Assembly (NCBI GenBank): GCA_913060665.1 | Contig: CAJXUY010000009.1 | Coordinates: 1 to 64,000, forward strand | Length of the DNA: 64,000 bases | Direction of reading: 5' to 3' | DNA from: an uncultured Oleiphilaceae bacterium | GTDB taxonomy: Bacteria; Pseudomonadota; Gammaproteobacteria; Pseudomonadales; Oleiphilaceae | Part shown: piece by piece, positions 43,485 through 60,646 of the stretch | Layout: every line of letters begins with the position of its first letter | Numbering within the stretch: position 1 is the first letter of the stretch | Made by a program: the position numbers and the translations under genes | Notes under the pieces: generated by a model | Seen by the model: the letters and a program-made list of their open reading frames with translations, nothing else | What the model was told of the DNA's origin: nothing | Database searches by the model: none

Positions 43485-44354
43485 TTAGGGCACTTTGATT
43501 GATTTAGTAGCAAAATCACTAACCAATTTTTTTTCGATTTTTATCATGGATTGAGACTTACCATCATAGCGATAACCTTTTGTTTCTTTTAGGTATTGCA
43601 TTTCTCTTCCAAAGGTTGTCAGCAATGGTTTCCCATCAGGGCCCCTCAAAATTTCTCCATTCTTTTTTTTGTATAAAACTCGAGAAGTCGGCTTGGTAAC
43701 AACGGCTATTCTATCTCCCCTAGCCACAGCCTTATCTAGGAAGGGCTTGTTGTATCGATTAAAAAACAGCTTATCATTACCCTTATATAAACTATCCGGC
43801 GTATTTAGCACATTAAAATGTCCCTTCTTTGCAGCAAAGTCTACATTTCTCATATAACTAAGGTCTAACTTTAACTCTTTGATGATGTGCTCCATATCTT
43901 TCTTGTAGCTTCCCAAAACCGTGGTCGTTCGTTTAGGGTCTACTTTTAAACGTGCACCATTAGAAGAAACATAATTAAGAGTCTTTGGCTGAGATTTAAG
44001 CCGCCCCCTCAAACCAGAAACAATTTGCATTCGATCCCACTGAGGCTTGGTCAAGCTAACAGCTGCTCTATCACTGTTTGATTTACGCGGCTCCGGCGTT
44101 TTGTTGATTTTCGAGGAATCACTAACCCGCGTATCTGATTTCGGCTTTTTGTTTGCTGTCGCCTTAGCGCTCTTTTTATTTTCGGTACTTTTAATGGATT
44201 TATTCTGTACTGATTTGTTAGTAGCAAACTTATCTTTTTTAGCCTTGACCTGGTTCTGATAATTTGAACCAGGTTTAGCGTAAGAGGTAGAAATATCACC
44301 AATGAAAAGCGAAAAGAGAAGAACTATCAGCAAAAGGAATTTTGAGTTTTGCAT
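43485..44354 (-). CDS. Secreted basic protein with CdiA/polymorphic-toxin-like C-terminal domain
   Basis: 289 aa. A signal peptide (about 1-26, ending TSYAKPG) is followed by a Lys/Ser/Asn-rich low-complexity stretch (about 30-100). The C-terminal domain (about 130-285) has TTVLGSYKKDMEHII, FNVLNTPDSLY, NKPFLDKAVARGD and TTFGREMQYLKETKGYRYD. To my recollection this pattern recurs at the ends of hemagglutinin/CdiA-type polymorphic toxins. So it may be an exported toxin or effector. No immunity gene is obvious beside it. It is the most distal gene of the Srf-like unit. Confidence 0.6.
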   Translation of the reverse strand: MQNSKFLLLIVLLFSLFIGDISTSYAKPGSNYQNQVKAKKDKFATNKSVQNKSIKSTENKKSAKATANKKPKSDTRVSDSSKINKTPEPRKSNSDRAAVSLTKPQWDRMQIVSGLRGRLKSQPKTLNYVSSNGARLKVDPKRTTTVLGSYKKDMEHIIKELKLDLSYMRNVDFAAKKGHFNVLNTPDSLYKGNDKLFFNRYNKPFLDKAVARGDRIAVVTKPTSRVLYKKKNGEILRGPDGKPLLTTFGREMQYLKETKGYRYDGKSQSMIKIEKKLVSDFATKSIKVP

Positions 44355-44437
44355 AAGACTGTCAACGAAGTGATGTGGCCGCCATGCTTTAAGGAAATAA
44401 AACTGGCGGCGTAGAAATTACAATTACTTTCTAAGAA

Positions 44438-46489
44438 CTAAATACCTGCTTTGATAGATGCCTTACAAGAGGTATGAGCCATCACCCAAGACCCGGGGTT
44501 CTTAGTTTTATACTCAGCACTAAGGTACTTATCACATGGTCCCTTTTTTCTTAGCTTCGTTACTACTTTCTTGGGCGTAGATTTTGACTTATACGCGTGC
44601 GCACATTGGTCTAGCTTCCAGCTTGGGATATTTTCTCCCAGTTTGACTTGAGACCATTTAGCGTGCACGTCAGCACTTCCCGCATTTCGTTTAAGTTTGC
44701 CAATTTCACTTTCCAAAGAGCTATAGATATCATTGATCTGACGACAACGCTTTACATAGTAACTATTTTTTTGCGTAGAAAAGTCTTTCGATACCATTAG
44801 GGCTTTAATGGCAATGGTCTCGACATCAGACTCCATCCAGGCGTAGTCCTGGCGCGTTAACTCACTACTTACATAGGATAACCCGTCAGGAAAATCCGAG
44901 GTTGAAATTGACACGACGTGAATATCTTCAAAATCCTGCGGATACTTTCTAAAACGTTCATTTAGCTTTACAAAGTAATTCAACGGTTTACCACCCACGA
45001 ACAGCATAGCCTCTACTTGACCATTCTTAAGAGCTTGTAGTGCCTGACCTTCTTTTTGAGCAATAAACTCCGGTTCAATATCCAAGACTTGAGACAACAG
45101 CTGAGCCGTCATATAGGTGCCGCTCCCCTCTCGTCCAGCAGATACTTTCTTACCATCTAAATCTTTAAAAGAGCGGACAGATTTATTAGCTAGTAAATGT
45201 ACTTCTTCATCATAGAGTGGCGTGATCAGTCTTAGTTGATCGGCCATCTTTCGCTCTTCAGGCTTAGTGCTAAACTTGAAGCGGGAGATAACATCAGACT
45301 GAACAATACCTATCGCTACGTTTTCAAATCCATCCATTCGTCGAATATTATCCTCTGATCCATTTGAATTCTTAACCTCGACGAGCACTTTGTCTTTGCT
45401 GATTTCAGCAATTTGTTTGCCAAAGGCAAAATAGGTACCGCGCTTTGAGCCCGTCGCAATACTGATTGAATTCCAGGAACAAAGGTCACGTTCCCAACCT
45501 GGCACCTGGGCATCCAAATCAACCTGCTGCCACTTTGAGTGCCACCCATTCACGTTATTTTTCAAAGACCCTATATTATCTCTTAATACCGTACCAATTT
45601 GGTCAAACTGCGAACAGCGGCGCTCAAAGTAATTCAACTTGCGCTTGCTGAACGAATCTGTGATTTTCGCGAAGTCATATGAAATAAGTAGCGCTTTTAC
45701 GGCCAGAGTACTCACACTTTCTTCCATCCAAGGGTAATCCTGAGGTGTTATTTCAGTCTGAAAGTAAGGCAAGTTTGATGCATCATCGAAGTCTTCTCTT
45801 GCTCCAGATACAAAATGAACATTTTTCATTCGTTTGCTTCCCTTGTACTTCTTCAAGTCAGCAAATAATTCAACCGGCTTACCTGCCACATAAATCATGG
45901 CATCTATTTCACCATCTAATACCGCTTCGAGCGCTTCACTTTGGTCCATAGTTAGTATTGTCGGGTGCTTTTCAATCGGCAGATTCAGCGCTTGTATAAT
46001 CGCGGTCGCGGTTACCCAGGAGCCACCACGAAATGTTCCTACATTGAGTTTTTTATTCGCCAAATCTTTTAGTGATTTTACTTTCTTATTCGCGAGAATA
46101 TGAACCTCTTCATTATATAGAGGTGCAATCAATCTCAACTCTTTAATATCCCGACTACTATTTAACTCTTGAGTTTTTAGCGTCTCTATAACGTCAGACT
46201 GAACAATGCCTATACCCGCATTCTCTGCACTCGCTAAGCGTTGGACGTTAGCAAAACTACCCGCTGACTCTTTAACACAAAGCTCTAGGTAATCCGTACC
46301 TAACTCTCTGGACATTAAGCGATGCAAGTCACTACCAATTTTCTTGTAGGTTCCCTTTGCCCCCCCTGTCACTACACCGATCTGCCGCATTTTATCGTTA
46401 CAGATATCTTTAGCCTGCGCATTAGCCGAAAAAGCCGCTGAACTGATTACCATAAGTATGAGTAAGGCTGCATTTTTGATATTTACCAT
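44438..46489 (-). CDS. Secreted protein with two tandem TAXI solute-binding domains
   Basis: 683 aa, about twice the usual TAXI size (~320 aa). A signal peptide (about 1-26) precedes TAXI repeat 1 (about 37-310) and repeat 2 (about 350-620). The repeats match in order: GGAKGTY / GSKRGTY, GIVQSDVI / GIVQSDVI, RLIAPLYNEEVHILANK / RLITPLYDEEVHLLANK, and A-M-I-Y-V-A-G-K-P / A-M-L-F-V-G-G-K-P. TAXI proteins normally feed TRAP transporters; no TRAP membrane subunit is near. A Cys-containing basic tail follows. It may serve as a periplasmic ligand sensor for the Srf-like system. Confidence 0.85.
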   Translation of the reverse strand: MVNIKNAALLILMVISSAAFSANAQAKDICNDKMRQIGVVTGGAKGTYKKIGSDLHRLMSRELGTDYLELCVKESAGSFANVQRLASAENAGIGIVQSDVIETLKTQELNSSRDIKELRLIAPLYNEEVHILANKKVKSLKDLANKKLNVGTFRGGSWVTATAIIQALNLPIEKHPTILTMDQSEALEAVLDGEIDAMIYVAGKPVELFADLKKYKGSKRMKNVHFVSGAREDFDDASNLPYFQTEITPQDYPWMEESVSTLAVKALLISYDFAKITDSFSKRKLNYFERRCSQFDQIGTVLRDNIGSLKNNVNGWHSKWQQVDLDAQVPGWERDLCSWNSISIATGSKRGTYFAFGKQIAEISKDKVLVEVKNSNGSEDNIRRMDGFENVAIGIVQSDVISRFKFSTKPEERKMADQLRLITPLYDEEVHLLANKSVRSFKDLDGKKVSAGREGSGTYMTAQLLSQVLDIEPEFIAQKEGQALQALKNGQVEAMLFVGGKPLNYFVKLNERFRKYPQDFEDIHVVSISTSDFPDGLSYVSSELTRQDYAWMESDVETIAIKALMVSKDFSTQKNSYYVKRCRQINDIYSSLESEIGKLKRNAGSADVHAKWSQVKLGENIPSWKLDQCAHAYKSKSTPKKVVTKLRKKGPCDKYLSAEYKTKNPGSWVMAHTSCKASIKAGI

Positions 46490-46541
46490 GTTAGAACCTC
46501 CTACGTTCTAATCCCTTTTTACATCACTTTTCTATCGACGA

Positions 46542-47507
46542 TTATCGAGCAATCACCACGCGGGCAGAAACCTGTTGACCATGCTTATCTTTAATCGTGT
46601 AGCCAATTTTATCTTGCCCATAATCTTCCGTATACCATGTATAGAGCAAAGTTTTATAATCATCATCAATACGAATCGAGCCATACTTACTCGCAGTCGC
46701 GTCAACGGACACAATTTCGAGGCCGTTGCCTTTGTCGTTATTGAGAACCTCCAAAACCATCTCAACTTCGTCTTCTAGGTCATAGGTATAGCGATATATA
46801 TCATTCTGCGCATCCAGTGATTGCACAAGAGGAGCCCCCTTAGATCCAGTATTACCTCCAGACCCTGTATTGCTACCAGATCCGGCATTGCTACCAGATC
46901 CGGCATTGCTACCAGATCCTGTATTACCTCCAGATCCGGCACTACTAGATTCAGTTGTAACCTCTTCTATAGCTTTCGTCTCATCCGAACCAATTGCCAA
47001 ATAAAGATACACAGCCATTGCGGCTAAAAAAGCTGGAACTAGCAAGAATAGCAAGGGCAAGTAGTTAGACTTTGATTCTTCAGCAAGATCGGGCGGTGGC
47101 GGCGATGGCGGCGATGGCGGCGATGGTGGAGGTGGCGAACCTATTATCTCTTCATCCGTTTCTCGACCTAATACCAGATCCTCTGGGTCCCAACTAAACA
47201 CCCCTACCGCTTCACCTGCACAGACACTTGCTTGAACTGTTTCGAACTCATCAACAAGATCGCTCACATCTTCCGATATCTCCATTAGCCATGAATTTTC
47301 GATTTTCAAATCGCTACTAAAGGAAAGGTGTGTCGCGTTTTCAACCCAGCCATCGACACTTAAGAAGTGCGGTTCATAACCTCTTTTTACTACTAAATCA
47401 CCAGGATGCTTAGCGCATGCAGACTTGGGCACCTCAATGAAGATACGCCTATCACCGTGCTCGCTGTAAAACTCTCGCAACCCCCACGCACTACCAGGCT
47501 GACTCAT
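46542..47507 (-). CDS. Membrane protein with Gly/Ser repeat linker and Ig/cadherin-like tail
   Basis: 321 aa. The N-terminal 120 residues are a globular, presumably cytoplasmic domain. A Pro-rich stretch of PPS repeats (about 130-145) leads to a transmembrane helix (about 153-175). Then comes a GSGSNAGSGSN-type linker encoded by an 18-bp tandem repeat, and a C-terminal domain (about 235-320) with EVLNNDKGNGLEIVSVD, the hallmark of bacterial Ig/cadherin-like VCBS modules. The last bases overlap the start of the SrfC-like gene. Function unknown; it likely carries signals or contacts across the inner membrane. Confidence 0.7.
   Translation of the reverse strand: MSQPGSAWGLREFYSEHGDRRIFIEVPKSACAKHPGDLVVKRGYEPHFLSVDGWVENATHLSFSSDLKIENSWLMEISEDVSDLVDEFETVQASVCAGEAVGVFSWDPEDLVLGRETDEEIIGSPPPPSPPSPPSPPPPDLAEESKSNYLPLLFLLVPAFLAAMAVYLYLAIGSDETKAIEEVTTESSSAGSGGNTGSGSNAGSGSNAGSGSNTGSGGNTGSKGAPLVQSLDAQNDIYRYTYDLEDEVEMVLEVLNNDKGNGLEIVSVDATASKYGSIRIDDDYKTLLYTWYTEDYGQDKIGYTIKDKHGQQVSARVVIAR
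46843..46950 (-). repeat. 18-bp tandem repeat, about 5.5 copies
   Basis: Units such as GATCCGGCATTGCTACCA repeat in frame from 46843 to 46950, with small differences. They encode the Gly/Ser/Asn linker of the membrane protein and can vary in copy number without frameshift. Confidence 0.85.
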
Positions 47508-50092
47508 GCAATGTCTCCAAGCGTTGCCAAGATACTTCCTAGTTTGGCATTTTCTTCTACGTTAACTAGTGTGCCTTTGCTAGAGCTGGCATTAACTTCT
47601 GTCACAAATACCAAGGCAGCTAGCCAACTACGGCTAAATTCATTACGGGCCTCAGCCATATCTTTCGTTCTTTCATGTAAAACCGGGATACCTTTCGTTT
47701 CATCAATCCTGATCAACGGTCTAAACAAGTCATTAGGATAATCAACAGCTGGCGCCTTAAGTTCACCTTTACAACCTAAATGATTCACAAAATCATTGAT
47801 TAATGTTGCAACCATAGTAGCTGCATGGTCCGCAATTTTCGTCGCGCTGGACACGTAAGCCTCAATTTTCTCTAGTTTTTCGTTTATCGCGTCAACAAGC
47901 TCAACGAGCTGAGTCCCCGCCTGTAATTCATTGGCGACGCTACGCATATGATCAGGCTCCAAGCTATAAAACTCACACAAATGCTCGTTATTGCATTTTT
48001 TTGCCATACTACTCACCCAGGATGAGACAATCATTTGCCCTGCACTTTCATAGTATGCATATCGAGACTTAGCGACACCTAATTGTTTATTCCGCCGATA
48101 GTCTAGATAAATTGCTCGAATTTTCTCCTGCGTCACTTGATACTCACCAATAAAACTCGGAATAAGATCAGGGTGTGTTTCTAAACGCGTTATCACTTCC
48201 TTAATTGCGCCGATGCGCTGCTTAATGCGCTCTTCAATATCGCCGTCCTCAAAGAAAGGCTTTAAGTTCTGGGTCAAGTTCTTTATCAAGGAGTCGGCTT
48301 TAGGTTGAATCTGATCGAACTTCACATCTGTGGTGCACGCCTCAGCTAGACCATTGGCTAAGTAAGTAATCCCACCATCATCTGGCTTAATCATTTCATC
48401 CCAGGCAGAAGCAACGTCCTTAAAATATTTCTGAGCGATATCTGTTCCCAAAAATGCGTCCTTATATTCTTGAGCTAACGTTAGGCTCTCAGGCTTTATA
48501 CCTAGCTCAATCCATGCACCTCCATGACCGATATCGCTAATAGAGAATAGATTATCCAAACGACACCCGGCAGGGTTACGAATTAAATAACTGTTATTAA
48601 AAGGTTGCGCAGGCGTCCACTCATTAACTGACGGTGAAAACTCGTCGACAACATTAAGCAGGTTACTAATTTTTAACGCTTTGTCTTTCTGACCTTGAGA
48701 TACTTCGAAGAAGCGATCGCACATGGTCACAGCAAAAAGTAAGTTTACCGACTTGCCTACTCTAGATTCGGCAGTCGAACCATGCGTACGCTTCACCCAG
48801 TCTTCTACAAGGTCCGGGTAATTTGGCACTTCCAATTGACTGGCTTTATGCACTGCAATCATGGTGTTTAAGTCGTAATTAGCTGAGTAATTATCAAACA
48901 TTACGGCAACCTTTCCACGCACAAAGGCTTCTCCTACAGGATGCTCTTCCCCGGAATCGGCAAAGAATTTCTCTCTGGATGCCCCTTTACGTGATCGTGC
49001 CCCTGGGAAGTCCAGAAGGTCTGTCGATTCCAGAAAGTCAAAAACGCCTTTCTCCAGCCTTGCAATCATCTCAAAGGCGAGTGCAGTCACCAAAGGTTTA
49101 CGTAACGTGGCAGTCTTGCCATCTAAGGTACATAACTGAGTTAGTTCACCTTCACCAGGGTTACCCAGACTTTCCTTGACGGTCAAAACATGAAGAATTG
49201 TTTTCCCTGGTGTGTTATTAGTAATTGCATCAAGTGGTGCAAAAACCCATTCCGAATGCCCTAGTTTGTCCAGAGCATCTTTGAGCTCAATATAAATCTG
49301 ATTAAATTGAGGCACTTCCCCCCATAAAAGAGAGAAAGCTGCCATGCGTTTATTTGGCGACAGTTTAGGAATCAGGTTATCAACCCTATCCCAAAACCAT
49401 TCACCTAACTCACGCTCTACTAAGGGGTGGCGACTCAAAGAATGCTCAAAATAATCTTGTAATTCATAAATATCTTCAGCCCTTAACTGATCAATATTTT
49501 CAGCTTGAGCATCAGCCTCCAGTTCATTGAGTACCTTAGAGACATAAGCCATATCCAAAGGGTTTACTGCATCCTTATCAAGATCCAAAACAAAGGAGTT
49601 AGCAAGAATCTTAACAACATCAATCTCCCGAAATACTCTCAGACAAACAGGGGAGTTTGCAGGCGACTGAGTATCCTGAAGCGTAAAGCGTGTTACTAAA
49701 CCAGTGGTTTCTCGTCCGCCTTGAGGGTTCACTTCATTAAGAAAATCGAGAAACTGATACTCACCCTCATTACCAAATCGTACTCGACCCTCTCGCTCAA
49801 TAGAGCTTTTATCGTCGCCTTTAGTTTCGGTAATAAAGCCCTGCATCATAAAGGACTTACCATGCTGACTTGGGCCAAAAATACCGACAGACATTGGGCG
49901 CTCGGACGCTCGAGATATCTTTCTCGCTTCCGTACTTTGCTTCTTAAGTTGCTTTACCAGCTCATCTTTTTTATCACCAACCAGCTCTTCATTATCAGCT
50001 ATCCATTGCAAAGCACCGGATGCTACGTCCACAAGTTTTTCACACTGTTCCGACAGTCGCTTATCTTTTTCACGCATCATGGAACCCATCAT
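47504..50092 (-). CDS. srfC: SrfC-like large P-loop protein
   Basis: 862 aa. It resembles the SrfC family of so-called virulence factors. A P-loop is clear at about 70-80 (GIFGPSQHGKS), and a DFPGARS at about 360 may be the G3/Walker B element, giving a dynamin-like or TRAFAC-like GTPase reading. The rest is helical. It starts within the SrfB-like stop (up to 23 bp overlap, several possible ATGs), so the two proteins are probably made together and interact. Its biochemical role in any organism is unclear. Confidence 0.82.
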   Translation of the reverse strand: MMGSMMREKDKRLSEQCEKLVDVASGALQWIADNEELVGDKKDELVKQLKKQSTEARKISRASERPMSVGIFGPSQHGKSFMMQGFITETKGDDKSSIEREGRVRFGNEGEYQFLDFLNEVNPQGGRETTGLVTRFTLQDTQSPANSPVCLRVFREIDVVKILANSFVLDLDKDAVNPLDMAYVSKVLNELEADAQAENIDQLRAEDIYELQDYFEHSLSRHPLVERELGEWFWDRVDNLIPKLSPNKRMAAFSLLWGEVPQFNQIYIELKDALDKLGHSEWVFAPLDAITNNTPGKTILHVLTVKESLGNPGEGELTQLCTLDGKTATLRKPLVTALAFEMIARLEKGVFDFLESTDLLDFPGARSRKGASREKFFADSGEEHPVGEAFVRGKVAVMFDNYSANYDLNTMIAVHKASQLEVPNYPDLVEDWVKRTHGSTAESRVGKSVNLLFAVTMCDRFFEVSQGQKDKALKISNLLNVVDEFSPSVNEWTPAQPFNNSYLIRNPAGCRLDNLFSISDIGHGGAWIELGIKPESLTLAQEYKDAFLGTDIAQKYFKDVASAWDEMIKPDDGGITYLANGLAEACTTDVKFDQIQPKADSLIKNLTQNLKPFFEDGDIEERIKQRIGAIKEVITRLETHPDLIPSFIGEYQVTQEKIRAIYLDYRRNKQLGVAKSRYAYYESAGQMIVSSWVSSMAKKCNNEHLCEFYSLEPDHMRSVANELQAGTQLVELVDAINEKLEKIEAYVSSATKIADHAATMVATLINDFVNHLGCKGELKAPAVDYPNDLFRPLIRIDETKGIPVLHERTKDMAEARNEFSRSWLAALVFVTEVNASSSKGTLVNVEENAKLGSILATLGDIA

Positions 50093-53000
50093 CCATTAAA
50101 TCTGTTGTCGCCAATATACCCGTATCCAGCCAATACCCAGACTCCTGCTTATCAACTGATTTCACCGTTTGCATCCGCAGACCAATGTCTCTCTTGGGAA
50201 TCGAATCACCTCGCCTATCCACTTGCTCGGTGATTTTAAATTGTTCGAGGTTAAAATCTGTCGATTTCTCTTCTTCGTCCAAGTAGCGTTGGTTCACTGA
50301 GCTATCTTCAATATGCTTTCTTTCGAAGATCAATTTAATTGGCTGCGCAATTCGTCTGGCTGTCTCATCGTCTTTATAAAAAACATGATAAATTTGCGCG
50401 GTAACCCAACGCTCTATCGGTAACTGGCGATAACCAATATCGAGTTTCGATGTCATTGATACAGTAAAGGCACTAGAAGAAGGATCACTTGCATCGACCT
50501 CCTCTTCAAAAACATCCTGGGTACTAATAAGACCTTTAGGGTCCATCTTGCCAATGTAGTTTGCCGTTGACTTATACTGCAACTGTTCGGACTGAAAGAC
50601 AAAGCTTGCATATCGCCCCTGACACAAATGACACAACAGAGCGCCCACAGAGGCTGTGGTTTTCGGATCATCTATCGTACCACTATCGCTTCTAAAGCTA
50701 TACCAGCCTCCCACACGATAACCGTACATAGGCACTACCCTATCTGGCGGAACCGCCACATTACTTATCACTCTATCCTTAATCGCGGGAAGTGCCGATG
50801 GCCTGCCTGTCAGTAGCAATATATCACAATCGAATGCTCGTACGACATCGCAGATATCATCCAAGGCTCGTCCAATCACACTTTGGATAACACCCGCTAT
50901 TTCCCGCGTATCCATATGTAAGACAATATCGTCAATAGAGAAACTGTCTCTTTCAACCTTAAAGACTGTATCTTCAATAAAGCGGAGTACTTCCGGCCTC
51001 ACTGACAATTCATCGATAATCTCTTCGAGCTGGAATGATTGCCCTTGATTATGTGTTCTCAGGTCACTATCTTCATGTAACTGAAGCAAACGAATCGCAG
51101 CAGGAATAAGTATCTGGTTAACAAATAAAGCCCGACGGACCTCATCAACGGTAGATATTCCCGTGGAATCCCCACCAAAATACCGGTTCATCAGCTGAGC
51201 AGCATTTTCTATACCTTGCAACTTAGCGTGTTTAACCAGTGCAGGTAGAATAAGAGCTTCGATCACTTGCTTAACGATGTCATCACCCGCTTGCCGGAAA
51301 CCCTCTCTAAATAACTGTACAGGGGTAATAATCTCATCATAGAGCTGATGCTCCATGACCATCAGGTCCGTTGTGCCACCTCCAATATCCAAGCTGGCAA
51401 TTCTGAGAGAAGGTGCACTTTGACCCTCTCGCACCTTGCCTACAATTGAGAAGAACTCTCTAGGGAAGCTCTGAAAGCGGTATTCTAATTCATTATACAA
51501 ATAAACCAGTTGCGCACAGGTTGCTTCATCCCACTCAAGCATTGGCTCAGGGCAACCTTGTATGTCCCATTCAAAAGCATTCCAGATAAGCTTGATCGCA
51601 GACCTTATTTGCCGACGTATTTCATTTCTTTCAGCTGCTGGAGTTGCTGAGGGTAACGTCACAAAAATTTTGCGCAGTTTTCGAGGAACATGGCTATTCG
51701 GGCGCAACATTCGATGTGAAACCGAATTCATCTGTGAGATCGCGTGTGACACAAGCTCTGCGACCAATAACATATACATTGCACGCCTGGAATAACGAAC
51801 CTCAAGCCCCAACCCCTGCTTGTTGATCTTTCCATCAACAGTAAGTTGAGCAGGTATTCGGCCACGAATCGGAGGAATCATTTCTTCGACAGAGAGCCTG
51901 CCTCGATTGTTAATCCAATTTTGCGGCCTTTCAGCTTCATCCCAAATATAACGTTTTGGGCTAGACATACCAGAAATACCTTCTCTACCGTTAGATAAAG
52001 AGGCAAGCCAGGCTGCTTCAGGACCGGTACGAATAGGGCTCGGCCACCAAAAAGCGTCACGGGACTTGGGGCGCCCAGAGCGCCTCGCAAACTCGCTCTT
52101 GCCAAACGACGCAGAAAAGAATTCTACTCGACTATCAAAAGGCTCAGTAACAACAAGCTCAGGCCGGCTCAGATCCCTTAGTTCCAAAATGGCAGGTTTA
52201 CCAATATTAGTGACATCATCGTCAAGCGCTTGCTCAGATAAAATACCGCAAGTTCTGCTATTACCAATATCGAGTATTAAATCGACATCAATATAATTCT
52301 TGACCCCTTTGCCTTGCTCGTAGATATCAGTCAAATTAATGGTCGGGAATTCAAAAATCTTTTGTAAGCTCTGCAACAAGGCTTCATAGTGTGCCCAAGG
52401 TTCACCTGTGTTATCAAAGTCATCTGCCCCTTTAAAACGAGGGCTCTTCTTCTTTTTCCCATCGATATACGATTCTTTTATCCAGTTATGTTGCCAATCA
52501 CCACTGGCAAAATTCATTTGCTGGATCTGATCACCTAACCAAGCAAAGCGAATCGCGGGGTCAGTCGCGTCTGCCTCCTCCGGCCCAGCATAAGCGCGAT
52601 TAGGCTTACGATCTAATACCTCAGTATCAAAAGCAATCACCAAACGATAAGGGCTACCTGGCGGATCACTTTCCAAAGGTTTAGCGATATATAGTCTCGC
52701 CCAGTTAGTTGGGCCATTATCAAAGACATCACTAACACTCGTAAGGCGGAAATACGGAATCGGTAACCACTGGCGATCAAAGACTTCTAGAGCGTTTTTA
52801 CCCGACACCTCATAGACTGCATCTGGGCTGGTATTCTTTGGACCGTCACTGTAGATTGAAGAGTATGTTTCATCGCCATAAGAAGACTCATCCTCACCTT
52901 TATCTTCTTCAACCGGATGAACAAATTGCTTGATAGTGGCGGATGTTTCATTTGAACTGACCTCTCGTTCAACATCCAAAAAGTGAAACTTAAACGATTT

Positions 53001-53114
53001 ACACTGAGTGGTATCAAGCGAGTAATCCAAAAACTGTATACCTGAATCAGGGATAAGCGATAAGGTCGTATCCTTCGGGTCTATCAGCTTAATGTTACCT
53101 TCTTCTAACCTCAT
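50070..53114 (-). CDS. srfB: SrfB-like Hsp70/actin-fold ATPase
   Basis: 1014 aa. Hsp70/actin-type nucleotide motifs are seen as phosphate-1 LILDIGNSRTCGIL (about 280), phosphate-2 ASLDIGGGTTDLMV (about 570) and adenosine motif LLLTGRPSALPAI (about 770). This fits the SrfB family. No signal peptide, so cytoplasmic. Its end overlaps the SrfC start and its beginning follows the SrfA-like gene by 15 bp. It may act as an ATP-driven scaffold for SrfC, by analogy with chaperone or cytoskeletal ATPases; that is inference. Confidence 0.85.
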   Translation of the reverse strand: MRLEEGNIKLIDPKDTTLSLIPDSGIQFLDYSLDTTQCKSFKFHFLDVEREVSSNETSATIKQFVHPVEEDKGEDESSYGDETYSSIYSDGPKNTSPDAVYEVSGKNALEVFDRQWLPIPYFRLTSVSDVFDNGPTNWARLYIAKPLESDPPGSPYRLVIAFDTEVLDRKPNRAYAGPEEADATDPAIRFAWLGDQIQQMNFASGDWQHNWIKESYIDGKKKKSPRFKGADDFDNTGEPWAHYEALLQSLQKIFEFPTINLTDIYEQGKGVKNYIDVDLILDIGNSRTCGILSEQALDDDVTNIGKPAILELRDLSRPELVVTEPFDSRVEFFSASFGKSEFARRSGRPKSRDAFWWPSPIRTGPEAAWLASLSNGREGISGMSSPKRYIWDEAERPQNWINNRGRLSVEEMIPPIRGRIPAQLTVDGKINKQGLGLEVRYSRRAMYMLLVAELVSHAISQMNSVSHRMLRPNSHVPRKLRKIFVTLPSATPAAERNEIRRQIRSAIKLIWNAFEWDIQGCPEPMLEWDEATCAQLVYLYNELEYRFQSFPREFFSIVGKVREGQSAPSLRIASLDIGGGTTDLMVMEHQLYDEIITPVQLFREGFRQAGDDIVKQVIEALILPALVKHAKLQGIENAAQLMNRYFGGDSTGISTVDEVRRALFVNQILIPAAIRLLQLHEDSDLRTHNQGQSFQLEEIIDELSVRPEVLRFIEDTVFKVERDSFSIDDIVLHMDTREIAGVIQSVIGRALDDICDVVRAFDCDILLLTGRPSALPAIKDRVISNVAVPPDRVVPMYGYRVGGWYSFRSDSGTIDDPKTTASVGALLCHLCQGRYASFVFQSEQLQYKSTANYIGKMDPKGLISTQDVFEEEVDASDPSSSAFTVSMTSKLDIGYRQLPIERWVTAQIYHVFYKDDETARRIAQPIKLIFERKHIEDSSVNQRYLDEEEKSTDFNLEQFKITEQVDRRGDSIPKRDIGLRMQTVKSVDKQESGYWLDTGILATTDLMDDGFHDA

Positions 53115-53129
53115 TATTCTCTCGCCTTA

Positions 53130-54416
53130 TCAATCTTGTAGGGTGATATTTAGACCCAGCTCGTATTCTGAGTTGGCGGCCACGTCTATTTCAAGTTGAT
53201 CTATTAAATCTCCTCCACGGCTCAAGAGTTTTACCCCCTGAACGGCCTTATCGCCATTGTTATAAACACTTGCCAGATATTTATCAAACTCAGCATCTTC
53301 AGAGATACAAATTCGTTCCATATGAGACTCCTGCGCAGTACTTCCATCGTTACTGACATCCATTACTGCATACTCAGTTTTCGTATTGTAGGGATCAACC
53401 AAAAGGTCAGGGTTTATCTCATCTGTAGGGGTTATGGGGTATAACACCAAATCAATATCCACTGCATCATTCCATATAGCAAAGACTTCAACCCCAGAAC
53501 AAGTTGCCGCTTTCGCCTCGTCCAGCAAGCTATTTAGGAGCAGATGATCCGCCACCAGTTGCTTACCTGCCTTAGGCACAAAAGTGTCGTCGTCTTGATT
53601 TGAAGTACTATTATTCGAAGGACTATTCGACACACTGTTTTGCGCACCCGCTATATCACAATACTCATTGTCCAAAGCTCTATTTTGCAGAGCCAAAAAC
53701 TCATTCTGCAAACGCATGGTTTCCATGCTTTCACTCTCTAGCGACTCACTTGCCTCAACTACCAATTCACAATGCCCTAGGGGGCCAAGGTTATAGGCAC
53801 CAAACATGCCACAACCATCGATAAGCTTCACATGAATAAAACCACAAACAGCGATAAACACCAGCCATAACAAGGCGTTAATAACCTGATATAAATAGTC
53901 TTTTTTGGGTTCAATGGGTTTAGCGACCGTCTTTGTACTCACAACCAACGGGCCAGCTCCATCGTATTCAGGGCGGTCAATACGCGCGCCCCAGTTTACA
54001 AATACTGGATTCCCGTCAACGCAGTAAAGTGAGTGCTCCAAACGTTCTTCTGGAATGGTAATCGCGGCCCAAAGAATTTCACCAAATAACCTTACTTGCC
54101 TATCTGACGCATCTTTTGAACGTTCTGCTAGATCTTTAAGTTTTGCCAAACTGGAAGCAGCCTTATGGCACACTTTCTCATAGGCTTGCGGTCCTAGATC
54201 TTTAGCTAAATTCGCCTGACCATCCCATGCAGAAAACCAGCTGTAAGATCCGCCACCTAAATTTTCAGGTTCAGCAAGAAGATTGGCATCTTTATCCCCT
54301 AATTCATTCCGGATAAAGGTATCCAAGTTCTCCCAAGTATCGACAGCTGTGTAACCCCTCGCCCCCATCAGGCGAAGACCACTGTAACTTGTGTCGGTTA
54401 TATACTGGCGTTCCAT
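53130..54416 (-). CDS. SrfA-like membrane protein
   Basis: 428 aa, placed where srfA lies before srfB in known srfABC clusters, but I identify it mainly by position and topology. A soluble N-terminal part (about 1-180) and one or two hydrophobic segments (about 188-212, VINALLWLVFIAVCGFIHVK) are followed by an acidic Asn/Ser-rich linker. A C-terminal beta-rich domain follows (about 300-428), which would be periplasmic. It could couple the ATPase and GTPase to the envelope. The gap to the protease gene is 5 bp. Confidence 0.6.
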   Translation of the reverse strand: MERQYITDTSYSGLRLMGARGYTAVDTWENLDTFIRNELGDKDANLLAEPENLGGGSYSWFSAWDGQANLAKDLGPQAYEKVCHKAASSLAKLKDLAERSKDASDRQVRLFGEILWAAITIPEERLEHSLYCVDGNPVFVNWGARIDRPEYDGAGPLVVSTKTVAKPIEPKKDYLYQVINALLWLVFIAVCGFIHVKLIDGCGMFGAYNLGPLGHCELVVEASESLESESMETMRLQNEFLALQNRALDNEYCDIAGAQNSVSNSPSNNSTSNQDDDTFVPKAGKQLVADHLLLNSLLDEAKAATCSGVEVFAIWNDAVDIDLVLYPITPTDEINPDLLVDPYNTKTEYAVMDVSNDGSTAQESHMERICISEDAEFDKYLASVYNNGDKAVQGVKLLSRGGDLIDQLEIDVAANSEYELGLNITLQD

Positions 54417-54421
54417 AATAC

Positions 54422-55492
54422 TCAGATATCTTCCGGAAGAGGGGTGTTGGAAATGGTGAAAGGCTCTAGATTTCTCGTTCTAAAAAATGCTTGAATAGTT
54501 TCCAAAGAAATTGACTTGGAAACAGGCGTCTGAATACTTCCCTTACCTGCTTGAATCTGGGTATTTACGCCGACGACCCGGCCACATTTATCGAGAAGCG
54601 GGCCTCCCGAGTTACCTTTTGCAATATAGGCATCGTGATATAACCAAACACCATCCTTTTCTTCCTGCTTCATAATCACTTCACCTGAATCAATAACAGG
54701 CTCTTTGTCGAACTTCACACTTTCAGGGTTCGACGTCGCGTTAATAAAATTCAAATCGTTAGCAATAATGTGGCCGGGGTACCCTGCAGAACGGACTCGA
54801 CTAGACTGCTCGACATTAGCAAATGCGAGAGGGGCAGAGCCGTTCACTGAATCAATGAAAAGTACCGCTAGGTCCGAATCCGTTCCGGATTTATAGTCGC
54901 CTATCGCTATCATCTTGGCTTCAACCGGCTCAAACTTAGTACTGAAAATTAGTATTCGATTACTAGCACCGTCCCCTTCAACAACATGCGCATTAGTCAA
55001 TATGCGTTGATCATCGATAAAAAAACCGGTGCCTATTCCGATAGAGCCGCCTTCCCCCCTCTTCGTTACCAATACTGTGGATGATAGTATTAGCTCTTTC
55101 AGCGATACAAACTCACCACTTGAAGCGTCCGCACAAGCCTGAGTCACAGCGACCGGTGATTGCGGCAAATTTTGTTGAATCGAATTCGATAGCAGCTTGC
55201 CATCCTGATTTAGGTACTCACCATCTACCAAACACATGCCATCATCAAGCGCAGAGCGTAAACCATCAATACGTTGTCGCAACATAGTATTATGTTGCTG
55301 AGCAATCTTAAGCAATTTGTCTTCTTGCACCTTGCTATCATATTGCTCTAGGTCTTCGGGGTAAGTTAGTACCCCTGGAATCAACAGTATTACCAGCGCT
55401 AGCAATGCCACTGTACAGGCAATTACCGGAGCTTTGATTTGCTGTAGAAAATCTTTTTTATCTTCCGCTTCCTTACTCACACTCAGCCCCAA
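54422..55492 (-). CDS. Membrane-anchored trypsin-like serine protease
   Basis: 356 aa. A transmembrane anchor (about 20-42, VIACTVALLALVILLIPGVL) and a coiled segment precede an S1C-type domain. The catalytic triad is visible: His in LTNAHVVEG, Asp in GTDSDLAVLF and Ser in AKGNSGGPLL. It lacks the PDZ domains of DegP/DegS. The periplasmic protease could process components or substrates of this system. It follows the vWA gene by 16 bp. Confidence 0.85.
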   Translation of the reverse strand: MGLSVSKEAEDKKDFLQQIKAPVIACTVALLALVILLIPGVLTYPEDLEQYDSKVQEDKLLKIAQQHNTMLRQRIDGLRSALDDGMCLVDGEYLNQDGKLLSNSIQQNLPQSPVAVTQACADASSGEFVSLKELILSSTVLVTKRGEGGSIGIGTGFFIDDQRILTNAHVVEGDGASNRILIFSTKFEPVEAKMIAIGDYKSGTDSDLAVLFIDSVNGSAPLAFANVEQSSRVRSAGYPGHIIANDLNFINATSNPESVKFDKEPVIDSGEVIMKQEEKDGVWLYHDAYIAKGNSGGPLLDKCGRVVGVNTQIQAGKGSIQTPVSKSISLETIQAFFRTRNLEPFTISNTPLPEDI

Positions 55493-55508
55493 TCATGATC
55501 AAAAATTT

Positions 55509-56513
55509 CTATTTACTCTCTTCAGCGATGTATTCCAACATCTTACTCAAGCTCTCTTGGTCACCCGCCACACCTGCAATCCCACCCGTTTCATCCGCGA
55601 CACACCTTACCGCATCCAGATTATCAACCAATGACACAGAGTGAATGTATATGTACGGATATGCTTTCTTAAGCTGCCTCGCTGAAGAACAGACACTGGC
55701 CCCGAGAAGCTTATCTTCCTCTTTTAAACAATTGTCCTGGCCATCCGTAAACAATACAACATTAATAGACTTATCCGCTGACTTACCAGCCCCCCCAAGA
55801 CTTATCATCTTGGGAATAAAGTCTATAGTTTCAGCAATAGGCGTGTTACCAATAGCCTCAAGTTGCACAACCGAATCCTTCGCACTAACATCTCCAACTG
55901 GAAAATGCTTTTTGGGTTGAAGCTCACAGTTATTGAAGCTCCACAAAGATATCGGAGATTCGTGTTCACTGCTTAATACTGGGATAATGGCATTTTTTGC
56001 CGTCTGAAGTCTGGACTTATTTTGATCACCATATACCTGCAAAGTCTTATTTATTTCTTGAAACTCCTTTTCGTGCTCTCTAGTGAATTTCTTGGCATCA
56101 TATAACCCTAGCAAATCCGCTCGTCGATTAAATAGGTCCTGCCACGTAGAGTGTTTGTTAGCATCACTGGCTTCTAGCATAGATATTGAGTCATCCAATA
56201 TAATGAGAACCTCAGCAGCTTTTTTTACCTCCACATCCGTCACTATGGGCGGCGGAATGGGCGCGTCTTCAACTTCGCATTCTTTAATACCAGATAGCTC
56301 GATTCGGAGATTTTGAAGAGCTTTCGTTAGTCGCCGTGTATCAGCAAGTTCGTCAACATAAGGTTTAACTAACGGTTGGCTAGGGCAATGAGATATTAAG
56401 CCGCCCAATACAGGAAGATTGAGTTCACACGCTTTTAAAGAAATGTATGCAACAAATGCCAGTACTACTGCAAACAGCACCCATGTAATTCTTGTTATGA
56501 TCATCCCTGCCAT
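55509..56513 (-). CDS. Membrane-anchored von Willebrand A-domain protein
   Basis: 334 aa. An N-terminal transmembrane helix (about 5-27) is followed by a vWA domain from about 95. The MIDAS metal site is complete: D-x-S-x-S in LDDSISM, Thr in NTPIAETID and Asp in LFTDGQDN. Such domains bind protein ligands through a divalent ion. The orientation suggests the domain faces the periplasm, next to the protease made by the following gene. Confidence 0.85.
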   Translation of the reverse strand: MAGMIITRITWVLFAVVLAFVAYISLKACELNLPVLGGLISHCPSQPLVKPYVDELADTRRLTKALQNLRIELSGIKECEVEDAPIPPPIVTDVEVKKAAEVLIILDDSISMLEASDANKHSTWQDLFNRRADLLGLYDAKKFTREHEKEFQEINKTLQVYGDQNKSRLQTAKNAIIPVLSSEHESPISLWSFNNCELQPKKHFPVGDVSAKDSVVQLEAIGNTPIAETIDFIPKMISLGGAGKSADKSINVVLFTDGQDNCLKEEDKLLGASVCSSARQLKKAYPYIYIHSVSLVDNLDAVRCVADETGGIAGVAGDQESLSKMLEYIAEESK

Positions 56514-56655
56514 GCTCTTAATCGCTGATTACAGAAGAAAAAACTAGCCATAAAATTTATCTTATTGAAAATCGATATTACCATAACTTCCTGTTAATTC
56601 TTAGAACTGCCCTTTATTAAGTCAACCACAGGCTATTCCTTCACTCAAATGATTA

Positions 56656-57300
56656 TTATGGGCTTGGAGGTCTCGGTGCCGGTACAGGGGGTGGCGAAGG
56701 GGGTGGCCCGTTACCACCACCATTGCGAGCCACGTCATTAAACTTACCGCTAATTCGCCCTACACCCAAGGAGCCTTGATTAAATTTTCGGGTTAAATAG
56801 CCTGGCTTTTTGCCACCAATTCCGGGGCTGGAATGAGAAATACCTGGGTTATTCTTATTCTTTAGCCAACCTAAAGCGGTCCTGGGTATACTCCTCCGGC
56901 TTTTTGCACTGACCTTACTTGCATTTTTTAACTTTGATCGAGAATAGCTTTTGTTACTATGGCCTTTCCCTTTCGCAGCCGATTTAAAGCGCTGATTTAA
57001 ACTTCTTTTACTGCTACCACGCTTTGGCCTTGAACCCGTTTTTGGTTTTGCCGCTCGATTAAACACCTGTTTAGAAGAACCCTTTCGCGCACTCTTATTA
57101 AATGATGACTTCGCCCGGCCTTTATTTGCAACTTTATTGAACTTAGGTTTAATTGCTTTGGGCTTCGCCCCCATCATTACAAACTTGTTCGTGGCACTTG
57201 AGCCAGGCTTAGTGCTCTGCGACTCTGCCACCCAAGACAAAAAACTAACCACGCAAGCCAGTATGCACAGCACTACCAAACTAAACATCCGTATCGTCAT
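56656..57300 (-). CDS. Secreted or anchored highly basic protein with Pro-rich tail
   Basis: 214 aa. An N-terminal hydrophobic segment (about 5-25) is followed by roughly 150 residues dominated by Lys, Arg, Ser, Asn and Gly with imperfect repeats of the K-F/S-N-K-x-A-x-K-G type. It ends with PPPSPPPVPAPRPPSP. No known family. It might bind polyanions such as LPS, DNA or peptidoglycan. It lies 140 bp before the vWA gene and 19 bp after the TPR gene. The low-complexity tail resembles that of the toxin-like protein at 43485. Confidence 0.6.
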   Translation of the reverse strand: MTIRMFSLVVLCILACVVSFLSWVAESQSTKPGSSATNKFVMMGAKPKAIKPKFNKVANKGRAKSSFNKSARKGSSKQVFNRAAKPKTGSRPKRGSSKRSLNQRFKSAAKGKGHSNKSYSRSKLKNASKVSAKSRRSIPRTALGWLKNKNNPGISHSSPGIGGKKPGYLTRKFNQGSLGVGRISGKFNDVARNGGGNGPPPSPPPVPAPRPPSP

Positions 57301-57319
57301 TTAGCACCTCCAGCAGCCA

Positions 57320-59155
57320 TCAAATCACTTCACACTGCTCAACAGCCTGACTTAACACTCTATCGTCAGGGTTTTTGAATGAACGGGCCAATTTACTTGC
57401 CAAATCAAAAAATCGACTATTAGGCATTCCCGAGCCATAAAGATTCTGAACCATGCAATGACATTGAGCTGAAGCTTTTAAATCACCTCTTCCTTGAGCG
57501 ATCAAGTAATTTCCACATTGATCATAGAAAAGTTTCGCCCCACTCTTTTTGTCATAACGCGAGTGATAAAACAAATCTCTATGCGGCATAGGCCTTCCTT
57601 CCACAAAAGCAGTCATATTTTCTACCAGAGGGCGACCTGGTTCTTCACAACCAAGCTTCTTCACGAAGGTATCAGCATCTCTCGAAGCATAATGCCCAGC
57701 CTTACTCATATTTAACTTACTTGATTTCCAATCATCATACATGGCTGACATATTGCCGTTTTTAAACATGGCACCAAATGATTCGTTCAAGAACTGTTCA
57801 CCTTTTTGTTTATCAAGCATTGAACCCACCATTTTAAATAGAGCCTCTTGTTCCATCTCCATTCTCATCTTAGCAATCGCATAAGTAGCTTCACCCTTAA
57901 AGTACACATCTGACTCTCTCTCACAGAAAAAGTCTTCTTTTCCTGACATGCTAGTAGAAATAAACTTCTCTAAATAACTTAGTAAGAACATGTTCGTCTC
58001 TTTTCCATAAAACACATCAACAAGTTCATGATTTCTTGGTGCAAGCAAATAAATCGAAGTTCGATCTCCATGATAGAATGCAGCCAAAAGATCAGAGGCT
58101 GAGTAATCTTCCGGGTTAAACGGATGAGCAACCAAGTTACCTAAACGAATAGCTTCGGCCAAAGCTGCATTATAACTAAGCTCATCGCCTTCCAATTCAT
58201 AAATTCTAGATAAGTTAAGGTGTAAACTGGAATTCTGGGGGTCCAAGTAAGCAGCGACTTCACAAATCGGTCTGGCATTCTCGACCAATACTTCACTTTC
58301 GTGAACCCCTCTGCCTTTTGCTGCTGGGTCCTCCGGGTGGCCTGCCTCCGCCATACAAAGACCAACAGCCATCCAGATAGCATCACTTTCCGTATCTGGA
58401 TCATTGGAAGAACCCAAAATTAATAAGATCTCACCAACAGAGTCATAGTCGCTATAATAGAGCATGAGTGTTGCGTAATTGAAACCAATCGTCGCCCAAC
58501 CCTTATCCCCCGGACTCAACACCGAAATCACACTCTCGCAAGTAAGCGCCGCAATATATATCGGGTCAATATTTCGAAATGCCGAATGTTTCTTTGTGAC
58601 CAATTCAGGATTATTAGAATCAAAAACCAAACAAATATCTGCAGCCTCTTGTAAGGCCGCCGTACTTCCTCCTTTTACTGCTTGCCCTAATAGATTCAAA
58701 TACTCTTCAACCTTGCCTTCAGATAACAGTTGCTTTGCGGAACTTAAAACCAAAGCGCTATCACCAGCACCATATTCACTCACCCAAGAACATGCTTTAT
58801 TCCTTACCCGGCTTGGAGCTCCTTTTGAGGCACAGATCATAGCAGCTAGCTCACTAGACTCTTCTTCCTCTTCAATCACACTTTCGAGTCGAACGAAAGC
58901 CTCACTCAACTTACCCGACCAGATTAATGCCTTGGCTAAGGAAAGTTTAATTGTTGGAGAGTCTGGCGATTGGCGCTCTGCCTTTCGGCAACTGGATACA
59001 GCTTTAGTAAGTAAACTATTACTTCCTACTTTCAAACCATTGTGGGTCGCTTGATGGCTAAGGTTTTCTACTAATGACAGGCAAGTATCAATTGAAGCTG
59101 TGGCTAACCCTGATAAACCGCTTAACAGCAGTAGTATCAATAAATATCTCAACAT
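57320..59155 (-). CDS. Secreted TPR-like repeat protein, first gene of the Srf-like unit
   Basis: 611 aa. A signal peptide (about 1-21, LLLLSGLSGLATAS) is followed by helical pairs with TPR-like spacing (SPTIKLSLAKALIWSGKLSE, SSLHLNLSRIYELEGDELSY). Many Cys and Gly positions are conserved within the repeats in the style of Sel1-like domains. It should be periplasmic and serve protein-protein contacts. It is the promoter-proximal gene of ten on this strand, with about 195 bp of upstream sequence before the barrel gene. Confidence 0.72.
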   Translation of the reverse strand: MLRYLLILLLLSGLSGLATASIDTCLSLVENLSHQATHNGLKVGSNSLLTKAVSSCRKAERQSPDSPTIKLSLAKALIWSGKLSEAFVRLESVIEEEEESSELAAMICASKGAPSRVRNKACSWVSEYGAGDSALVLSSAKQLLSEGKVEEYLNLLGQAVKGGSTAALQEAADICLVFDSNNPELVTKKHSAFRNIDPIYIAALTCESVISVLSPGDKGWATIGFNYATLMLYYSDYDSVGEILLILGSSNDPDTESDAIWMAVGLCMAEAGHPEDPAAKGRGVHESEVLVENARPICEVAAYLDPQNSSLHLNLSRIYELEGDELSYNAALAEAIRLGNLVAHPFNPEDYSASDLLAAFYHGDRTSIYLLAPRNHELVDVFYGKETNMFLLSYLEKFISTSMSGKEDFFCERESDVYFKGEATYAIAKMRMEMEQEALFKMVGSMLDKQKGEQFLNESFGAMFKNGNMSAMYDDWKSSKLNMSKAGHYASRDADTFVKKLGCEEPGRPLVENMTAFVEGRPMPHRDLFYHSRYDKKSGAKLFYDQCGNYLIAQGRGDLKASAQCHCMVQNLYGSGMPNSRFFDLASKLARSFKNPDDRVLSQAVEQCEVI

Positions 59156-59350: not shown

Positions 59351-60646
59351 TCAAAAACCTAACTCCGCCCCCACAGCCACTCGATCAGCCTGGTCAAACT
59401 GACCGAAGAGTCCTTTATGATTACCATAAAAACGATCCCCTCCTAAATACACATCCAGGTTCGATATCAGGTTATAGCTCATCTTGACACGAACCAGTCC
59501 GTCATGCCGATTAAGGGAAGATAGATTGCTTGCACGAAACGTCAGCGTATCATTCAGAAAGCGATGCTCCCAGATGAGGGATATTATATTTTCTCTCTCG
59601 TCTTTGACGGTCAAATTGTTTTGACCCAGTACACGACTTTGAAACCATTGAAGCGATATAAGCTGATCGGTCCACCCTTGATAATCAAGCCCAATGACAC
59701 TCCCCCATTGATTGGTTTTTACCACCCCTGGTAATGACACAACACTGCGCTGGTAGCGATCAGTCTCATACGCTAACTCCGTACGCAAAACCCAGTCTCC
59801 CAGTGCGGTACTGGCTGAACCTCCAAGCAAGTGGCTGCGTTCATAATTAGCCGATACGAAAGGGGTCACACCCTCTATGCTTGTTCTCAATACGGGGTCA
59901 TCTATATAGTGGTAGAGATAGTTTAGGGTAATATCCCAACCGTTCCAAAAATGCGCCAAACGGACACCAAAGTCGCTATCCCTAATCCAGTGCGAAGGTG
60001 CCTTTGGGCTTTCTACTCTGTCATCGGTTGCCCCTCCCTTTTGAGGAACCAGCAAAGGACTCGTAAATTCATAAGGTGAGCCGCTAGGGGCCAGCTCATG
60101 AGTGGTTCCATCGACAATCCATAGTATCTGCAAAATACTATCATTGGGTAAAGAGAACTCACCATTAAACATCCAAAGAGGTATACGAGACTCATCAAAG
60201 TCATCCAATAAAAATTCCCGATAGCTCTGCGGATTAACCACATCCAATAACTTTAAGCCATCTGCCTCACCCCAAACAACTTGCTGTTTACCTAGACGCC
60301 AGTACCCCAAGCCTGTTTCAAACTCCCAGTACAACTCGCTCAGCTCCAACCCTCCATGGGGAGCATCGTAGCGAAATGCTCGTCCACTGGCATAGGTGTC
60401 AGGTGTACTAACGGGATTCAACACTGTCTGCTGATCCAGAAAGCCTTTCACTATGAAGGTGAGGTCTCCTTTAGGAAGCTCACCGTTCACCTCCAGGTCA
60501 GCCTCTAACACCTGTTTTTGCCATTCGTTATCTAAATAGTTGTAGGCATTTTCAGCCTTGATTGTTCCACCAATATCTAGAGCCGACACCTCCCGAACAA
60601 CTAGCAACAACAGTAATAACAAAGCAGAGTATTTAGAAAACCTCAC
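59351..60646 (-). CDS. DUF1302-like outer-membrane beta-barrel protein
   Basis: 431 aa from a GTG at 60646, preferred because GGGAG lies 7 nt upstream; a longer ATG reading overlaps the RND gene and hides the signal peptide. After the signal peptide (about 1-23, cut near VSALDIGG) come alternating amphipathic strands ending in Phe (AVGAELGF), as in outer-membrane barrels. WRLGKQQVVWGEADGLKLLDVVNP is a hallmark of DUF1302-like proteins. It is co-transcribed with the RND-LolA fusion and may be its outer-membrane partner. Confidence 0.78.
   Translation of the reverse strand: MRFSKYSALLLLLLLVVREVSALDIGGTIKAENAYNYLDNEWQKQVLEADLEVNGELPKGDLTFIVKGFLDQQTVLNPVSTPDTYASGRAFRYDAPHGGLELSELYWEFETGLGYWRLGKQQVVWGEADGLKLLDVVNPQSYREFLLDDFDESRIPLWMFNGEFSLPNDSILQILWIVDGTTHELAPSGSPYEFTSPLLVPQKGGATDDRVESPKAPSHWIRDSDFGVRLAHFWNGWDITLNYLYHYIDDPVLRTSIEGVTPFVSANYERSHLLGGSASTALGDWVLRTELAYETDRYQRSVVSLPGVVKTNQWGSVIGLDYQGWTDQLISLQWFQSRVLGQNNLTVKDERENIISLIWEHRFLNDTLTFRASNLSSLNRHDGLVRVKMSYNLISNLDVYLGGDRFYGNHKGLFGQFDQADRVAVGAELGF

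Follow-up and report, generated by a model that had tools for sequence, protein, structure and literature searches.

The SrfABC proteins carry the annotation "virulence factor" without an agreed mechanism. According to the literature, the SrfA, SrfB and SrfC proteins of Xenorhabdus form a complex (PMC6950479), and a srfC mutant of Salmonella shows poor swarming with normal swimming (PMC4219756). In host-associated Deltaproteobacteria, srfB and srfC were reported in 2013 to lie beside tagQ, tagR, tagS, tagT and ppkA (PMC3608642). In P. aeruginosa, assembly of the H1 type VI secretion system (T6SS) after outer-membrane damage requires TagQ and PpkA (PMC11881912), and contact-dependent assembly of TssK requires TagQ and TagR (PMC6657622).

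Here, we examine a cluster of ten genes on a stretch of 64,000 nucleotides from an uncultured Oleiphilaceae bacterium (contig CAJXUY010000009.1, positions 1 to 64,000; called the window below), in which SrfA, SrfB and SrfC are accompanied by genes that we call TPR, BAS, VWA, S1C, IgC, TAXI and TOX (Table 1). We will show that the cluster represents a real recurring system, and not a fixed ten-gene unit. At close to an even chance, we read it as an envelope-surveillance transducer that is a variant of SrfABC. Gene content, predicted folds, transmembrane (TM) segments by hydropathy, the exchange of periplasmic modules on common heads, the recurrence in related genomes and the presence of Tag/PpkA-type sensor genes in many relatives were all established by computation.

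The comparison comprises 49 SrfB loci (27 from genome contigs, 15 more, those of genomes G006, G055 and G063, three on plasmids, and the window), with genome G976 examined additionally. SrfB was found in 3 of the 163 genomes of the window's family, its own included, and these represent three genera. All three loci hold SrfA, SrfB, SrfC, S1C, Ig and TAXI genes, in three different orders. The S1C gene adjoins a gene for an SrfA-head protein in 12/12 loci that have it (11 of the 49, and G976), and relatives of the window's Ig and TAXI genes occur in G976 and, among the other 48 loci, in G006 alone. Over all 49 loci, an SrfC gene is present in 44, an SrfA-head protein in 37, a protein with the second head type described below (c408) in 30 and S1C in 11; the vWA part of PpkA is found in 22, TagS in 19, TagR in 17, TagS and TagR together in 17, and TagQ in 12, three of which lack other specific Tag genes. 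S1C stands together with both Tags in four. It is important to point out that these counts are lower bounds, as many loci end at contig or stretch ends, and that some of these very loci also served to train the module profiles.

The sequence-only reading had treated the ten genes as one system, which would fail if the flanking genes did not recur beside SrfB and SrfC in other genomes. Recurrence is found for the six families named above, SrfA, SrfB, SrfC, S1C, Ig and TAXI, but TPR, BAS and TOX have counterparts in 0/48 other SrfB loci and none in the G976 stretches, and the small vWA gene recurs elsewhere only as shared parts. SrfA, S1C, Ig and TAXI accompany SrfB-SrfC also in the other two SrfB-bearing genomes of the family, which belong to other genera, so that the cluster is no accident. 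A chance placement of SrfABC beside unrelated envelope genes would fit the three genes without counterparts and the variability of the region in a genus-mate (see below), but not the joint recurrence of six families out of ten in two further genera, nor the head fusions and the shared stalk that tie S1C and vWA to SrfA. As an account of the cluster we consider it highly improbable; it is largely refuted for the six families, but not for TPR, BAS and TOX, the membership of which is unproven.

SrfB is a firm member of its family (PF07520, 826 bits against a cut-off of 27.1), and comparison of its AlphaFold model with the PDB predicts an Hsp70-like ATPase. The model shows the Hsp70-type nucleotide-domain fold with its motif residues at about 275-840, followed at about 850-983 by a beta domain, approximately where the substrate domain of DnaK would stand. 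The alignments with Hsp70 reach into this beta domain, ending near model residue 983, with an overall deviation of 6-8 A. SrfB differs from Hsp70/DnaK in its N-terminal 270 residues, which form an extra, unassigned region, and in the low identity of 10-20%; no J-domain or GrpE family is present among the ten window genes according to Pfam. Searched by sequence against the PDB, SrfB gave no match at E <= 1.

SrfC, encoded directly downstream of SrfB with an overlap of 23 nt, scores 552 bits with PF10139 (cut-off 28.1) and is predicted to be a dynamin-like GTPase with a dynamin-type G domain. The structure matches of its AlphaFold2 model (predicted local distance difference test, pLDDT, 85.8) belong to the dynamin superfamily, giant-virus dynamins are the top matches in a viral structure library, and residues G73, K79 and D361, of G1/G3 type, are invariant across 24 sequences. 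By sequence, a weak match to GBP5 (E 0.011) was the only one in the PDB. The predicted fold and the invariant residues are likenesses to the bacterial dynamin-like proteins (BDLP, SynDLP, the 5owv/5oxf pair and IniA), whereas the identity to these is 8-14% and the gene neighbouring SrfC encodes an Hsp70-like partner. Another locus (L033), which has five SrfA-head proteins, contains between SrfB and SrfC an additional, divergent SrfC-like protein (13168-15516; PF10139, 32 bits).

The window shares with the enterobacterial SrfABC operon, known from Salmonella, Xenorhabdus and others (PF07520, PF10139, NF040486), the gene order, the SrfB and SrfC families and the succession of head, linker and TM segment in SrfA. 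It differs in adding the S1C, vWA, Ig and TAXI genes, in its SrfB, which stands on a long branch beside that of Tistlia, and in its SrfA, which is recognised by the head alone. This SrfA is a divergent member, reaching 49 bits with the NCBIfam SrfA_fam model (cut-off 150) in its N-terminal part only. A hidden Markov model (HMM) of the head, trained on 23 SrfA heads with the window, G006, and the vWA and S1C proteins left out, finds it with 56.8 bits over residues 1-143. The same HMM matches two S1C proteases and eight members of the vWAup group, of which five have the vWA motif; two further S1C proteases on plasmids carry the SrfA head. A single type of cytosolic head is thus combined with three or more kinds of periplasmic part. 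The E-values of these head and module profile runs apply to small sets of open reading frames (ORFs).

The gene after SrfC often encodes the second head type, the c408 head, followed by a TM segment and another domain. In the classical c408 proteins, this further domain appears TPR-like by eye and has no Pfam match. Profiles of the c408 head match the Ig protein of G006, that of G976 and an incomplete protein in G277. The window's IgC has the same position after SrfC and the same layout as the c408 proteins, and its Ig domain (Big_9 in Pfam, 33 bits) is common to the G976 protein (34 bits).

A further connection is provided by a three-cysteine stalk behind the TM segment, common to the window's VWA and to the SrfA proteins of a group comprising the window, Tistlia and plasmids. 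The stalk occurs in 9 of 65 head and S1C proteins, where 2.2 would be expected by shuffling, and marks this group, not the whole family. The window's VWA resembles the SrfA of Tistlia (26 bits) and scores 24 bits with PF13519, below the cut-off of 27. Early vWA profiles drifted into SrfA proteins through the shared head or stalk and were not used as vWA calls. S1C has a trypsin-type protease match (70 bits) and no PDZ match, and the His, Asp and Ser positions are conserved in 7/7 aligned S1C proteins. The S1C profile includes two SrfA-head proteins and also flags one SrfA (L096); all 11 S1C loci were each verified to have the protease. Two more loci can be mentioned here. In Desulfovibrio sp. 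An276, a second S1C protease near SrfB (L019, 17881-18990) has an N-terminal part that reads as zinc-ribbon and FHA-like, and the Mesorhizobium japonicum plasmid pMLa carries S1C-SrfA-SrfB-SrfC-c408 (L095, 15842-21013) and, behind these, genes for PAN-domain proteins and a family-3 glycoside hydrolase, which might form a further plug-in sensor set.

We now consider the link to damage sensing. In many loci, the genes following c408 match those of genome G127, in the same order: PpkA C-terminal part, TagT, TagS, TagR and TagQ. The scores are 613 bits for the presumed C-terminal (vWA) part of PpkA, the kinase part lying outside the comparison, 394 for TagS, 328 for TagR and 118 for TagQ. Among 145 genomes in its order, G127 is the sole one with TagQ above the NCBIfam cut-off, and a T6SS sheath gene lies about 12 kb away. 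Such SrfABC loci with PpkA-vWA and TagT/S/R/Q modules, described for host-associated Deltaproteobacteria (PMC3608642) and found here also in Pseudomonas, Halomonadaceae and others, share with the window the SrfA-B-C core and the single-pass protein directly after SrfC, the c408 position corresponding to that of the window's IgC. Two candidates were discarded: the TagT profile, contaminated by unrelated ABC ATPases (with a window match at 39771-40592), and the lipoprotein gene of the classical loci, which as NCBIfam TagQ reaches 34 bits, far below the cut-off of 300. Elsewhere in the window's genome, where TagQ alone was searched, there is one sub-threshold match on contig C17 (37.7 bits); matches of this kind are present in 77 of 145 genomes.

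The sequence-only reading had described a cytoplasmic ATPase/GTPase pair with inner-membrane anchors and periplasmic modules. This arrangement is supported, and the parts recur together. Hydropathy gives no TM segment in SrfB or SrfC, one central TM segment after an N-terminal part of about 150-175 residues in SrfA and IgC, an N-terminal TM segment in VWA and S1C, and signal-like N termini in TPR, BAS, TAXI and TOX; sidedness is deduced from these segments and the usual location of the periplasmic domain families. In the proposed mechanism, single-pass inner-membrane proteins would probe the envelope with periplasmic modules (vWA, S1C protease, the SrfA C-terminal domain and the Ig domain), possibly assisted by the soluble TAXI binding protein, while their cytosolic heads would dock on a complex of the Hsp70-like SrfB and the dynamin-like SrfC. 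A periplasmic event, such as a ligand, an exposed peptide, proteolysis or damage, would alter how the heads are held, the ATPase cycle of SrfB would remodel or free them and load SrfC, and SrfC might then assemble on the inner membrane and tether, remodel or seal it. More generally, and at somewhat below an even chance, there may be a class of trans-envelope machines in which SrfB/SrfC read interchangeable periplasmic sensors via two families of adaptor heads. PpkA/Tag would be one plug-in and S1C/vWA/Ig/TAXI another, with damage coupled directly to inner-membrane remodelling and not to a kinase or sigma factor. The predicted folds, the swappable heads and periplasmic parts, and the Tag/PpkA-like genes of many loci make such a model of SrfABC testable.

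In this mechanism the docking of the heads on SrfB/SrfC, the signal and the membrane-remodelling output are inferred, and several points weigh against it. TM-scores for the structure matches of SrfC are low (0.20-0.25 of the query), Z scores of this size can arise by chance among helical proteins, and hydropathy shows neither a TM nor a paddle-like segment in SrfC, in difference to the bacterial dynamin-like proteins; its action on the membrane is for these reasons unproven. The head of the window's IgC bears just a weak resemblance to the c408 head (hhalign probability 67; hmmsearch E 0.37 with one profile and 1.2 with another), and a three-sequence c408-head profile gave no match to it. None of the window ORFs matches the PpkA-vWA, TagS, TagR or TagQ profiles, so that damage sensing is carried over to the window from its relatives. 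In 6/6 named enterobacterial loci (L020-L024, L026) SrfA-B-C stand alone, which means that periplasmic sensors need not adjoin the core. Finally, 5 of the 49 loci (L036, L038, L070-L072) are without SrfC. The contig of L036 ends inside SrfB, and L038 has a half-length SrfB ORF and no SrfC in the remaining 6.7 kb. In L070, L071 and L072 (genomes G557, G283 and G400), SrfB was observed without SrfC or a recognised head protein within 19.9 kb; immediately upstream of SrfB in L071 there are a response regulator and a protein of 333 aa.

Published work also calls SrfABC a cytotoxin: the Xenorhabdus proteins are toxic to HeLa cells (PMC6950479). SrfABC might accordingly be a tripartite toxin against eukaryotic cells, with the rest of the cluster serving it. 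However, the SrfB and SrfC models fold like cytosolic NTPases of Hsp70 and dynamin type, a TM segment is present in nearly every listed SrfA member, and SrfB loci occur in Methylococcus, Methylobacterium, Cereibacter and rhizobia. We therefore give the toxin very little credence here. As their carriers include a methanotroph, phototrophs and rhizobia, the annotation "virulence factor SrfB" is no proof of pathogenicity and should not be read as evidence for it.

Another option is defence or retaliation against phages or rival bacteria, where the sensors would detect an attack, SrfB/SrfC would execute a membrane response and TOX, perhaps with BAS, would be released or delivered. The sporadic presence of SrfB is in line with this: besides the family, and with the window's own genome counted in, it was found in 3 of 194 genomes in the order, 8 of 370 in the class and 26 of 397 in the phylum over the cut-off, and SrfB-like genes are carried on 142 of 72,556 plasmid records, 114 of them Klebsiella. 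The cluster also lies in a stretch that differs from the genus-mate, its relatives have Tag/PpkA-type genes, and the window's genome has T6SS sheath genes. The latter were, however, found in 5/5 genomes tested, with no SrfB-negative control, and are thus not discriminating. Conflict systems centred on a GTPase, with HSP70, vWA and FGS domains, are known (PMC7159879) and share the themes of GTPase, Hsp70, vWA and peptidase with the window; Srf is mentioned 0 times in the available part of that paper. No PADLOC model matches SrfA, SrfB or SrfC. Only S1C matches models there, with TOX weakly hitting ZorB (E 0.009), and PHROGs returned nothing for SrfA, SrfB and SrfC.

The C-terminal domain of TOX has a relative in a cassette-like context, which speaks for defence. 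The C-terminal half matches two plasmid records, from Listeria (43%) and Subdoligranulum (40% by tblastn over residues 119-266), the latter relative being a cassette-like ORF. On this Subdoligranulum variabile plasmid (L091, 1-4400), the relative is part of a short ORF in which the junction sequence DSQSPAGDNGGNASAE of a larger upstream ORF recurs. We take such an arrangement to resemble orphan toxin-tip cassettes. On the other hand, TOX is absent from the other loci; among 274 genomes of the class, it is present in the window's own, and the remaining 273 gave no match. It is flanked by TAXI and a TauE-family gene, and no immunity gene is evident beside it. TOX and BAS have no Pfam family match, and a sequence search of the PDB with TOX gave nothing below E 0.6. 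On balance, we consider defence a rather unlikely reading.

An export or assembly machine was also considered, in which SrfB/SrfC and the membrane proteins would mature or secrete BAS, TOX or TAXI. TPR, BAS, TAXI and TOX do have signal-like N termini, and an Hsp70-like protein could serve as a targeting chaperone. However, the putative cargo bears ordinary N-terminal hydrophobic segments, no pore or permease family is found by Pfam among the ten genes, and BAS, TOX and TPR are not conserved, which makes this scenario improbable. TAXI itself matches TIGR02122 in two stretches (210 bits). With the TAXI proteins of G006 and G976, themselves 61-64% identical to each other, both its domains reach 42-45% identity, as compared with 30-34% for two TAXI proteins outside Srf loci. 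In contrast to a TAXI-TRAP transporter, the window has the binding protein with no TRAP permease, either within the ten genes or in the scanned part of their flanks. At two other loci (L097, 5148-7963; L098, 5411-7951), TAXI proteins were seen directly behind a long coiled-coil-like protein with no TRAP permease directly adjoining, perhaps another non-transport use of TAXI.

Returning to the surveillance transducer, the sequence-only reading had held that the layout was not described as a unit. For the wider family this is partly wrong, srfB and srfC having been reported with tagQRST and ppkA (PMC3608642). In the open PubMed Central literature, represented mostly by titles and the starts of abstracts, we found no description of the S1C/Ig/TAXI variant, nor of SrfB as Hsp70-like together with SrfC as dynamin-like, and one paper treating SrfB and Tag genes together.

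In a tree of SrfB (47 rows, G976 left out), Tistlia, the locus of which combines S1C with Tag modules, comes out as the sister of the window (100/100), and G006 forms a group with G277. A long branch (1.28) leads to the window, and the deeper forks are open. As Ig and TAXI sit beside two separate SrfB lineages, an exchange of this accessory set is suggested; the hosts' membership of the same family is an alternative. SrfB was found in 0/4 genus-mates examined. In the genus-mate G002 (L089), a DUF1302-MMPL pair lies about 5 kb from a GGDEF-tRNA-Met block, whereas in the window the distance is 32 kb (27020-59350), so that the cluster lies in a variable stretch. Integration at tRNA-Met is not shown: the last 18 bases of this tRNA have no copy in the window and the following 35 kb besides the tRNA itself, and no integrase is present among the ORFs of at least 140 aa between 25.7 and 43.3 kb. 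G002 has two tRNA-Met copies.

Table 1. The ten genes of the cluster, in order of transcription (window positions)
Gene	Position	Strand	Features
TPR	57320..59155	-	611 aa; tetratricopeptide repeats, signal-like N terminus; TPR_19 32 bits; hydrophobic N-terminal segment
BAS	56656..57300	-	214 aa; net charge +44; hydrophobic segment 6-24; proline-rich tail
VWA	55509..56513	-	334 aa; N-terminal TM, three-cysteine stalk, vWA domain, DxSxS motif at residue 104
S1C	54422..55492	-	356 aa; single-pass trypsin-fold serine protease; TTG start; His-Asp-Ser positions kept
SrfA	53130..54416	-	428 aa; cytosolic SrfA head 1-143, TM 178-196, three-cysteine stalk, unrecognised C-terminal domain
SrfB	50070..53114	-	1014 aa; Hsp70-like ATPase (predicted); PF07520
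SrfC	47504..50092	-	862 aa; dynamin-like GTPase (predicted); PF10139
IgC	46542..47507	-	321 aa; N-terminal part and proline-rich linker before TM 152-170, then Gly/Ser repeat linker and Big_9 Ig-like domain
TAXI	44438..46489	-	683 aa; tandem TAXI-type solute-binding protein, signal-like N terminus
TOX	43485..44354	-	289 aa; signal-like N terminus, lysine-rich first half, C-terminal domain with plasmid relatives

The ten ORFs were verified at 43485..59155, and their coordinates confirm that all face the same way with short gaps or overlaps, as had been read from the sequence at the outset. The gaps range from 5 to 142 nt: 19 nt for TPR-BAS, 142 for BAS-VWA, 16 for VWA-S1C, 5 for S1C-SrfA, 15 for SrfA-SrfB, 52 for IgC-TAXI and 83 for TAXI-TOX, and besides the SrfB/SrfC overlap there is one of 4 nt between SrfC and IgC. 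As the largest gap separates BAS from VWA, two units, TPR-BAS and VWA-to-TOX, are possible. Promoter-like sites are fewer than in shuffles (17 observed against 29.9), and for this reason no promoter claim is made. Upstream of TPR, the same-strand run goes on after 195 nt with genes for DUF1302 (59351-60730) and MMPL/LolA (60660-63851) proteins. Within IgC, five copies of a repeat with 18-nt spacing (46842-46947) encode the Gly/Ser/Asn linker between the TM segment and the Ig domain, the length of which could differ between strains.

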